Origin: Candidatus Eiseniibacteriota bacterium
GTDB taxonomy: Bacteria > Orphanbacterota > Orphanbacteria > Orphanbacterales > Orphanbacteraceae
Reading direction: 5' to 3'
DNA length: 56,397 bases
Assembly (NCBI GenBank): GCA_024276995.1
Contig: JAJRWB010000045.1
Location: 1 to 56,397, forward strand
Both the position numbers and the translations under genes were made by a program. Shown here piece by piece: positions 17,724-35,406 of this stretch (the first letter of the stretch is position 1; each line of letters opens with the position of its first letter). The notes under the pieces are model-generated. The model saw nothing but the letters and a program-made list of their open reading frames with translations. It ran no database searches and was not told the DNA's origin.

Positions 17724-18032
<309 letters not shown>

Positions 18033-18087: not shown

Positions 18088-19266
18088 CTAAGTCGCGACT
18101 CCGGTCACCACTCCAGCGCCGACCGTGCGCCCCGTTTCCTTGATTCCGAACCTCTGTTTCGTTTCCAGGGCGACGGCGCCGCCCAGATCTATATCCATTT
18201 CCGAGTAGCCTCCCGGGAGAATCGTCTCCGTTCCTTCCGGAAGAGTCACGCGGCCATCCACCTCGGCGCTTCGCAACTGAAACTTCGGTGTCCACGGTGA
18301 CGGCGTGCCGTCGCGGCGCCCCCCCTCCTCGGCGGCGAGCATGTACGCCACGGCGCGAAAAGATTTCGCCGCGCCGATCGACCCGGGCGCCGCGAGTACC
18401 GCGCCCCTCGCGACCTCCTCGCGCGCCTCTTCGGGAAACGAGATCTCCACCCGATCGCCGGCAACGGCCGATTCGGCGGCGCGTCCCCCCTTGCGGACTT
18501 CCGAAACCGTCCACTCGTTTCCGCTCGGCACGCCGGCGGAGATGATCGTCGCGCCCGGGGAAACCGTTCCCCGCTCCACCGTCCCGACGGCCACGGCACC
18601 CCGTTCGGCGTCGATGTACGCGGTGTCCACGGGGAGTAGGAACGGCGCCTCCGCCGGCGGCGGCACCGCCGCGCACACCGTTTCATCGAGCACGCCGAGG
18701 AGCTCGCGGATCGGCGCGACCGCTTCGCCGTCGGACGGATCCGCGGCCGCACGGAGGGCGGATCCGCTCACGAAGGGAATCCGCTTTCCGTCGAAGCCGA
18801 GCCGGTCGAGCATGTCGCGACTCTCCCGCTCCACACGATCGACGATACCTTCGTCGGCCACGGCGTCCGCCTTGTTGAGGAACACCGCCACCACGGGAAT
18901 GTCGAGCGCCCGGAGAAGGGCGAGCTGCGATCGCGTGTGGGCCATCGGCCCATCGGCGGCGCTTACCGTGAGGAGGGCGCCGTCGAGCCGGATTCCGCCG
19001 CCCACGGCGCTCTTCACGAAATCGATGTTCCCGGGACAGTCGATCATCGCGTAGACGCGCCGATCCGTTTCGAAGGGAGCGACGGCACGGCGAAAGACCA
19101 TACCCCATTCGCGTGTGACGCCCGCTTCCACGCTCGGCACGGCGGCGGTGTCACCGCCCGCCCCGAGGAGCACGGCGGCCATCGCCGCGACGAGGGTGCT
19201 CTTCCCGTGGTCGACGTGGCCGACCACCGCCACGTTCGCCACTTCCCCCCGACCGTTCCCGACCAT
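18088..19266 (-). CDS. Degenerate EF-Tu paralog in the canonical str-operon tuf position
   Basis: The 392-residue protein has EF-Tu length and three-domain layout: GTPase P-loop GHVDHGKST (16-24), NKAD (131-134), GSAL (168-171), domain 2 around [13 protein letters not shown], and the EF-Tu C-terminus [16 protein letters not shown]. Key residues are changed. DCPGH has become DCPGN, so the His that activates water in EF-Tu, IF2 and EF-G is Asn80. The switch I RGITI motif aligns with WGMVF (54-58), so the Mg2+-coordinating Thr is Val57. ATG 19266 is chosen because GGAGGA lies 9 bases upstream; in-frame ATG 19287 or TTG 19305 (overlapping fusA) are alternatives. It lies between fusA and rpsJ, exactly where tufA normally is. 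Poor GTP hydrolysis is expected; an EF-Tu decoy, a regulator, a specialised factor, or decay of tufA are all possible. It lacks the C-terminal winged helices of SelB. Confidence 0.85.
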
Positions 19267-19301
19267 CTGTTCGTCTCCTCCGCTCATTCCGTCACCGAGC
19301 C

Positions 19302-21383
19302 TCAATACCCGCGCATCCGGGCGATCATCGCCTCGCAGATCCGGGTAGGCACATCGTCGTACCTCGCGAACTGCAGCGTATGGCTCGCCCTCCCCTGAGT
19401 GAGGGAGCGCACAGCCGTCGCGTAGCCGAACATCTCCACAAGCGGCACGGTGGCGCGGATCACTTTCACCTCACCCCGCTGATCGGTGCCGACGATCTGG
19501 CCGCGCCGCCCGTTCAGATCGCCGATCACCGCTCCCACGTACTCCTCGGGAACCACCACTTCCACTTCCATGATCGGCTCGAGAAGCACCGGGTCCGCCT
19601 TCCGGACGGCGTCGCCGAACGCTTTCGACGCCGCCGTCTCGAAGGCGAGTTCGGTGGAGTCGGTCTCGTGGAACGAACCGCCCACCAGCGCCACTTGGAT
19701 TCCCATCAGCTCGTACCCGGCGAGCACGCCGCCGCCCATCGAGTTGCGAGCCCCCCGCTCGATGGCGGGGATGAACTCCGACGGGATCACCTCGGGCGAT
19801 ACCTTGTTCACGAAGGCGAACATCCCTCCGTCGGCGAGAGGGGCGACCTCGAGAATCACGTGGCCGAACTGGCCGCGCCCGCCGGTCTGCTTGTCGAAGC
19901 GGACTTCCGCCTGCGCGCTCGTGCGGATCGTCTCGCGGTACGCCACCTGCGGCTTCCCCACGTTCGCCCCCACCCCGAATTCCCGCGCCATCCGGCTCGT
20001 CAGGATCTCGAGGTGAAGCTCTCCCATACCGGAGATGATCGTCTGCCCCGTCTCCGCGTCGATATGGTGGCGGAACGTCGGATCCTCCTCGGCGAGCCTG
20101 GCGAGCGCCGACGTGAGCTTCTCCTCGTCGGCGGCGGACTTCGCCTCGATCGCCACCGAGATCACCGGGGTCGGAAAGGTCATCGTTTCGAGGGAGATCG
20201 GCTTCGCCGGATCGCAGATCGTGTCGCCCGTCGCCACGTTCCTGAGACCGACCGCCGCGGCGATCTCCCCGGCGGTGACGATCTCCCTTTCCTCCCGCTT
20301 GTTCGCGTGCATCTGGAGAATCCTGCCGATCCGCTCGGTACGGCCGGTACGCGAGTTCAGAATCCGATCCCCGCTTTTCAACCTCCCGGAGTACATCCGG
20401 AAGTACGATAGCTTCCCCACGTACGGGTCGGCGGCGATCTTGAAGGCGAGACCACAGAACGGCTCGTCCAGTTTCGCCTTCCTACTGACTTCGTTGCCGT
20501 TCGAAGGGTCGAGACCGGTCACGGGCGGGACGTCGACGGGAGAGGGAAGGTACGCGACAATCGCATCGAGCAGCTGCTGCACCCCCTTGTTCTTCAGGGC
20601 GCTGCCGCAGAGAACCGGGAAAAAGGACCCGCCCAGGGTGCCTGAGCGGATCGCCCGGTGAAAGTCCTCTTCGAGAAGGGGTTTCCCTTCGAGGTACTTC
20701 TCCGTGAAGCGGTCGTCGTACACTGAAATCGCGTCAATCAACTCGTTGCGGGCCTCTTCCGCGCTCTGGCGGTGTTCTTCGGGAATCTCCTCTTCCCAAA
20801 ACTGCGCGCCGAGCGACTCCTCATCGAACGTCACCTTCTTCAGGCGAACGAGATCGATCAGTCCCTCGAAATCATCTCCCGAGCCGACCGGGAGCTGGAT
20901 CGGCACCGCGTGTGCCCCCAGCTTCTCGCGCATCATCCCGAGCGCGTTTCCGAAATCGGCGCCGACCCGGTCCATCTTGTTGATGAACGCCAGTCGGGGG
21001 ATCTGGTATTTATCCGCCTGGCGCCACACCGTCTCCGACTGGGGCTCCACGCCCCCGACGCCGCAGAAAACGGCGATGGCGCCATCCAGCACCCGGAGGG
21101 AGCGCTCCACCTCGACGGTGAAGTCGACATGCCCCGGGGTGTCGATTATGTTAACCCTGCGTTCTTTCCAGAAGCAGGTGGTCGCAGCCGAAGTGATGGT
21201 TATCCCGCGCTCGCGCTCCAGGTCCATCCAGTCCATCGTCGCGGTTCCGTCGTGCACTTCCCCGATACGATGAACCCGCCCGGTGTAGAAGAGAATCCGC
21301 TCGGTGACCGTAGTCTTCCCCGCATCGATATGCGCCATGATACCGATGTTGCGCGTATCCTCGAGTCGAGACTCCCGGGCCAT
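19302..21383 (-). CDS. fusA: Elongation factor G
   Basis: The 693-residue GTPase drives ribosomal translocation. The P-loop AHIDAGKTT, switch [22 protein letters not shown] and NKMD motifs are all intact, in clear contrast to the neighbouring EF-Tu paralog. Domains II-V follow, including the domain IV loop region (GGRGQFGHV) that reaches the A site. ATG 21383 lies 188 bp downstream of rpsG; the stop is followed by the EF-Tu-like gene 35 bp on. Confidence 0.98.
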
Positions 21384-34200: not shown

Positions 34201-35406
34201 CTATTCGAAAATCTCCGCGATCACGCCGGCGCCGACGGTGCGCCCCCCTTCACGAATCGCGAAGCGGAGCGATTTCTCCATCGCGATCGGCGTGTGCAGC
34301 TCCACCGTCATTTCCACATTGTCCCCGGGCATGACCATCTCGCGTCCCTCGGGGAGGCTGAGCGTCCCGGTCACGTCGGTGGTGCGGAAGAAGAACTGCG
34401 GGCGATAGCCGGTGAAGAACGGCGTGTGGCGTCCCCCTTCGTCCTTCGTGAGGATGTACACCTCTCCGCGGAACTTCGTGTGGGGCGTAACCGATTTCGG
34501 CGCCGCCAAGACCATACCGCGCTCGAGGTCGTCCTTGTTCACGCCGCGCAGGAGAAGGCCGATGTTGTCGCCCGCCTGGGCCTGGGTCATCTCCTTGCGG
34601 AACATTTCAACGCCGGTGACCACCGTCTCGATCGGCTCGCGAATACCGACGCGCTCCACCTTGTCGCCGACTTTCACCACACCGCGCTCGACACGGCCGG
34701 TGCCGACGGTGCCGCGGCCGGTGATGCTGAACACGTCTTCCACCGCGAGAAGGAACGGCTTGTCGATTTCGCGCTCCGGCTCGGGGATGTGCTCGTCGAT
34801 CGCTTCCATCAGTTCCTGGATGCACTTCGTCGCTTCCGGATCGTCCGGGTTGTTCATCGCGTTCAGCGCGGAACCGCGGATCACGGGGAGATCGTCGCCC
34901 GGGAAATCGTACGAGCTGAGAAGTTCGCGAACCTCGAGTTCCACCAGGTCGAGAAGCTCCGGATCGTCCACGGTGTCCACCTTGTTCAGGAAGACCACGA
35001 TATGCGGCACGTTGACCTGGCGAGCGAGAAGCACGTGCTCACGGGTCTGGGGCATCGGACCGTCCGACGCGCTCACCACGAGAATGGCGCCGTCCATCTG
35101 GGCCGCACCGGTAACCATGTTCTTCACATAGTCGGCGTGGCCGGGACAGTCGACATGGGCGTAGTGGCGCTTGTCGCTCTCGTACTCCACATGGGATGTC
35201 GCGATAGTGAGAATCTTGGTGGCGTCGCGACGCCCCTGGGATTCCGACGCCTTCGCAACCTCGTCATAGCTGATCTTGGTGGCCAAACCCTTGGCCGCCT
35301 GCACAGCCGTGATCGCGGAAGTGAGAGTCGTCTTGCCATGATCGACGTGGCCGATCGTCCCCACGTTCACATGGGGCTTGGTTCGTTCGAATTTCTCCTT
35401 CGCCAT
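34201..35406 (-). CDS. tuf: Elongation factor Tu, with atypical switch I
   Basis: The 401-residue EF-Tu has intact GHVDHGKTT (19-27), [11 protein letters not shown] with the catalytic His90, NKVD (141-144) and all three domains to [13 protein letters not shown]. Switch I differs from the textbook form: ARGITINTSHVEYE is replaced by [15 protein letters not shown], with Thr67 kept for Mg2+ binding but the Arg-Gly-Ile lost. From memory, planctomycete EF-Tu shows a similar RDATK-type switch I, so this may be a lineage trait. It lies between tRNA-Thr(GGT) and tRNA-Trp, as tufB does in E. coli. Because the second copy (18088-19266) is degenerate, this is probably the only working EF-Tu in the window. 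Confidence 0.97.

Follow-up and report, generated by a model that had tools for sequence, protein, structure and literature searches.

The window analysed here, a 56,397-nucleotide stretch of Candidatus Eiseniibacteriota bacterium (contig JAJRWB010000045.1), has on its minus strand a complete EF-Tu-type frame flanked by fusA and rpsJ, at 18088 to 19266 and possibly from 19305. The operon order is rpsL, rpsG, fusA, paralog, rpsJ, rplC and onward. A sequence-only reading had described a full-length EF-Tu-like frame at this place and left out its strand; the frame is intact and encodes 392 amino acids. The features referred to below are as follows.

17724 to 18032, minus strand: rpsJ (S10), downstream of the paralog after a gap of 55 nt
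18088 to 19266, minus strand: EF-Tu paralog, 392 amino acids from ATG 19266 to the stop at 18088, no internal stop
19027 to 19041, minus strand: DCPGN of the paralog, DxxG kept and catalytic His84 replaced by Asn
19093 to 19110, minus strand: switch I stretch EWGMVF of the paralog, EF-Tu Arg58 and Thr61 lost
19195 to 19221, minus strand: P-loop GHVDHGKST of the paralog
19267 to 19305, minus strand: possible N-terminal extension of the paralog from TTG 19305, with a 4-nt overlap with the fusA stop (TTGA)
19302 to 21383, minus strand: fusA (EF-G), directly upstream of the paralog
34201 to 35406, minus strand: normal tuf, 690 bits on the EF-Tu model, on the same contig and the only normal tuf of the genome

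The ATG at 19266 has the good ribosome-binding site claimed for it (GGAGGAG, 8 nt upstream), and from the sequence both this codon and the TTG at 19305 are possible starts. The 4-nt overlap with fusA recurs in the orthologs of two other genera (ATGA in G004 and GTGA in G001), and the G004 protein also starts with MRL, like the extended window paralog. The conservation of the overlap indicates translational coupling of the paralog with EF-G. Upstream of the normal tuf lie genes for tRNA-Thr, tRNA-Tyr, tRNA-Gly and tRNA-Thr, and downstream of it come tRNA-Trp and the genes from nusG to rpoC. This is the classical tufB layout, and the odd copy is therefore the one in the tufA slot.

Scored against curated models, the paralog matched EF-Tu best (300 bits, E about 1e-89, far above chance), ahead of EF-1A (123), SelB (115) and CysN (56). 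This places it in the EF-Tu/EF1A superfamily and bears out the proposal that the tufA slot is occupied by an EF-Tu paralog. The curated cut-off of the EF-Tu equivalog model (TIGR00485), 522.4 bits, was missed by the window protein and by its orthologs (348 and 235 bits); the paralog is an EF-Tu derivative, yet not an accepted EF-Tu. It shares with the products of tufA and tufB the three-domain fold, the DxxG motif and the slot in the str operon, and both the intact P-loop and the C-terminal EF-Tu motif (GRTVGAG) are as first described. Pfam domains 1 and 3 scored above their gathering scores; domain 2 fell below (24.2 versus 30.3) but is seen in the structure model. Its further motifs are a 15-residue stretch at switch I, DCPGN, NKAD and a 12-residue stretch. 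Unlike EF-Tu, the paralog reads WGMVF in place of RGITI, with its Mg2+-binding Thr61, lacks His84 of DCPGH, and has replaced the switch I arginine, the aminoacyl pocket, the T-stem contacts and the residues through which EF-Tu engages L7/L12 and EF-Ts.

We compared seven genomes of the phylum, drawn from five genera of a single family. Orthologs in the same slot, which the sequence-only reading had proposed as a check, were present in three of the six other genomes (G004, G001 and G005), so that with the window genome (G000) the gene spans three genera; the G005 ortholog is split across two contigs with an identical overlap of 126 nt. In the sister clade (G002, G003 and G006), fusA continues straight into rpsJ. 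Carriers and non-carriers of the slot gene form separate clades in the tree of the main tufs, and one gain or one loss accounts for the pattern. The paralogs group apart from all tufs with support of 100/100. Furthermore, a paralog profile gave 622–705 bits for the paralogs and at most 412 bits for the other matches listed, across 386 genomes; only this gap in score is informative, because the profile was built from the three full-length paralogs themselves. Identity between genera is 43–47% for the paralogs versus about 91% for the main tufs.

To locate the divergence, we examined 175 EF-Tu positions conserved at 95% or more (E. coli numbering, mature protein), of which 53 were altered and 67 retained in all paralogs. 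Translational GTPases use the catalytic histidine to activate the hydrolytic water and the switch I threonine to coordinate Mg2+. The retained positions include the P-loop in every ortholog (G18, H19, V20, D21, H22, G23 and K24) and, beyond it, D80, G83, K136, D138, S173, A174, K89, R288 and E378. All four orthologs lost R58 and T61 in switch I and Y87 and N90 in switch II. The threonine replacement noted first (Val57 of the window protein) is real and common to the whole group; switch I of G001 can be aligned in two ways, two residues apart, and threonine is absent in both. The loss of the catalytic histidine (Asn80 of the window protein) is likewise real but restricted to the window genome, the other three orthologs keeping His84, and is thus no shared defect. 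The NKAD sequence, once listed as an anomaly, fits the normal NKxD motif. In G001 and G005 Asn135 is replaced by serine and the motif reads SKID, which may weaken nucleotide binding in these two proteins. Judged by these alignments, the defect common to all orthologs is the missing switch I threonine, together with the arginine before it and most aminoacyl-tRNA contacts. Eight replacements are identical across genera (T25S, H118Q, L148R, I220D, L278F, Y326W, D336E and R377K), which speaks for one origin and a new constraint.

Selection on the paralog was estimated from the congeners G001 and G005. Their copies differ with a dS of 0.195 and a dN of 0.041 (omega 0.207), and amino-acid changes are strongly depleted (pS versus pN, Fisher test, p = 6e-13). 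For the same pair, dN/dS is 0.051 for the main tuf and 0.094 for fusA. The paralog is thus constrained, if less than tuf and fusA, and with no stops in any carrier the earlier view of a gene under selection holds; the stops, frameshifts and dN/dS near 1 of a decaying pseudogene were not found in the four genomes. Codon bias showed no contrast between ribosomal and other genes. These data bear on the possibility that selection on the slot gene is relaxed and that it is a redundant tuf copy, heading to loss and devoid of an important new function. Its absence from G002, G003 and G006 (lost or never present), its rapid divergence, the loss of His84 in one lineage and of Asn135 in another and a dN/dS four times that of the main tuf would all be expected of such a copy. 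We nevertheless consider it unlikely: the frame has stayed intact across three genera, the depletion of amino-acid changes is strong, identical replacements were fixed across genera, and the P-loop is untouched except for Thr25 to Ser.

Structure models point to a change in conformation. The AlphaFold model of the paralog, from an alignment of 25 rows, has the full EF-Tu fold (pLDDT 87.5, with parts of switch I under 50). It matches GDP-form EF-Tu with TM scores of 0.82–0.91, mostly 0.88–0.91, and GTP forms such as 1eft with only 0.5–0.57. The control, the same rows with the main tuf as query, gave the reverse (about 0.88 for GTP forms and about 0.55 for GDP forms). Although AlphaFold takes no account of nucleotides and each protein was modelled once, the contrast hints that the paralog adopts a GDP-like open form and has lost what holds the GTP form. 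The notion of a locked GTPase therefore needs qualifying: the model is consistent with a protein held in a GDP-like form, not with one locked in the GTP form.

The losses extend to the surfaces on which EF-Tu carries tRNA, with contact roles that we take in part to be those of the ternary complex structure. All four orthologs lost D216, I220, N273 and L277 near the 3' end and aminoacyl group and H319, Q329, T338 and G379 toward the T stem. A specialised tRNA-binding or guarding protein has a precedent in the archaeal SelB-like MM1309, a GTP-binding protein whose switches serve domain packing and which protects Cys-tRNA (PMC4329189). The paralogs keep all three domains and the 5'-end contacts K89 and R288, as such a role might require. 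However, every ortholog differs from EF-Tu at T61, R58, N90, D216, I220, N273, L277, Q329, T338 and G379, which removes most of the contacts with the acceptor end and the T stem, and MM1309 is closed whereas the paralog model is open. With the A76/aminoacyl pocket and the T-stem contacts lost, the earlier suggestion of a specialised tRNA carrier is weakened, and we regard a guarding role as distinctly improbable.

Also replaced in all four orthologs are H118 in helix C and L148 in helix D, which EF-Tu uses for L7/L12 and EF-Ts, and in part Q114. This weakens the idea of a decoy or stalk regulator, in which the paralog would compete with EF-Tu for EF-Ts or the L7/L12 stalk. The EF-Tu fold, the fusA-coupled synthesis and the retention of E152 in helix D would suit such a competitor, and a GDP-like form would suit EF-Ts binding. 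Yet helix D, which binds L7/L12, has Arg for L148, helix C has Gln for H118, and in E. coli EF-Tu the single change L148A makes association with the ribosome five-fold slower (PMC5770553); we give this reading little credence. Least probable by our estimate is a slow but working GTPase that, like Streptomyces EF-Tu3, delivers some of the aminoacyl-tRNAs. The paralogs retain most nucleotide motifs, and three of the four orthologs His84, but every ortholog lacks the switch I threonine and has a changed aminoacyl pocket, and the score lies far under the EF-Tu cut-off.

Two other candidates were set aside. Loss of EF-Ts does not explain the paralog, as EF-Ts is present in all seven phylum genomes. 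Balon-type hibernation factors bind EF-Tu-GDP; a partnership with such a factor was rejected because baeRF_family10 is absent from six of the seven genomes.

The explanation that we favour, and to which we give an even chance, is that the tufA-slot copy became a neofunctionalised, non-cycling EF-Tu-shaped pseudo-GTPase. Loss of residues for the GTP switch and catalysis with retention of fold and selection makes it a putative pseudo-GTPase, judged from sequence and model. EF-Tu is among the most conserved bacterial proteins, and its duplicates are usually kept identical by gene conversion. After an old duplication of tuf, the tufA-slot copy would have escaped gene conversion while its synthesis from the str operon stayed coupled to that of EF-G. 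The protein probably still holds guanine nucleotide, since the P-loop, DxxG, NKxD and SAL are kept in the window genome. Switch I could presumably not be ordered around Mg2+ and the gamma phosphate, which would leave the paralog in the GDP-like open form and incapable of a normal ternary complex with aminoacyl-tRNA. We infer that its altered surface serves a binding or regulatory role in the translation apparatus. Against this explanation stand the very fast evolution of the gene, its dispensability in the sister clade and its presence in four of the seven phylum genomes.

The switch I of the paralogs also bears on their origin. It is of ordinary length, versus four residues longer in the main tufs of all seven phylum genomes, none of which has RGITI. 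Furthermore, at 20 positions that set the main tufs apart, the residues of the paralogs match those of other bacteria more often than those of the main tufs. Both features hint, at the level of sequence, that the duplication predates the switch I change of the main tuf. A tree constrained to unite the paralogs with the main tufs of the phylum could not be rejected (p-AU 0.42) and the paralog branches are extremely long, so the tree cannot date the duplication. In the normal tuf of the window, the long switch I (near 35190–35265) reads GRRDATK(I)LTIATSH and keeps Thr61. A similar form was seen in just one of the other tufs inspected, L029 (G014); planctomycete tufs share it.

We also identified a second EF-Tu paralog of 386 amino acids in another phylum (G045, locus L202, 2013 to 3173, minus strand). 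It keeps a P-loop (GATGHGKTT), reads DCETN for DCPGH and NTRN for NKxD, and scores 220 bits on the EF-Tu model, below the cut-off. Paralogs of this type occur in about 50 genomes of four families (loci L204–L225 among them), with 34–96% identity, and nearly all of these genomes also show an ordinary tuf. Like the window paralog, the G045 protein stands beside a normal tuf, keeps the P-loop and has lost switch and tRNA-contact residues; unlike it, it belongs to another phylum, has a DCETN-like motif and adjoins hisA, outside the str operon. The two families share 7 of 63 replacements versus 3.6 expected (p 0.064). This is not clearly above chance, and we prefer separate origins to homology.

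Known proteins of comparable kind resemble the window paralog only in part. Actinobacterial EF-Tu3 (actEFTu2), which a survey names as the sole clearly distinct EF-Tu subfamily of bacteria, is likewise a second tuf copy escaping gene conversion, but is described as a condition-specific translation factor with no lost switch (PMC4342817). Yeast Ski7 is an EF1A-family paralog with Ser for the catalytic His that is regarded as binding rather than hydrolysing GTP (PMC4509514). Unlike the paralog, Ski7 is eukaryotic and derived from Hbs1, keeps a switch I Ser that coordinates Mg2+, adopts a GTP-like form and has an exosome-binding N-terminal region. Archaeal aSelBL/MM1309 also combines divergent G2 and G3 motifs with a kept fold and conserved orthologs (PMC3037878, PMC4329189), but belongs to the archaeal SelB lineage, is closed and binds Cys-tRNA. 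The literature searched, which covers few subscription papers, held no report of a bacterial pseudo-EF-Tu.

A maintained str-operon copy that overlaps fusA and lacks the switch threonine suggests that a central factor of translation has been given a different task, much as happened to an EF1A relative in yeast Ski7. More tentatively, and in our view less likely than not, pseudo-EF-Tus could form a recurrent, unrecognised bacterial class: additional tuf copies that are freed from gene conversion would repeatedly shed the GTP switch and the grip on tRNA and turn into nucleotide-bound regulators of translation. The window copy would be a GDP-like member made with EF-G, and the second, conserved over four families, would have arisen independently in another phylum. 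With this second, apparently independent family, the role of switch-dead EF-Tus becomes a testable question, and the paralogs offer natural variants with which to assign EF-Tu residues to individual partners.

The EF-Ts of the phylum is short (about 200 amino acids; G000:C75:170396-170983) and matches only both ends of TIGR00116, and the window genome has two EF-G-like proteins besides fusA (G000:C27:72187-74232 and G000:C62:4315-6354).
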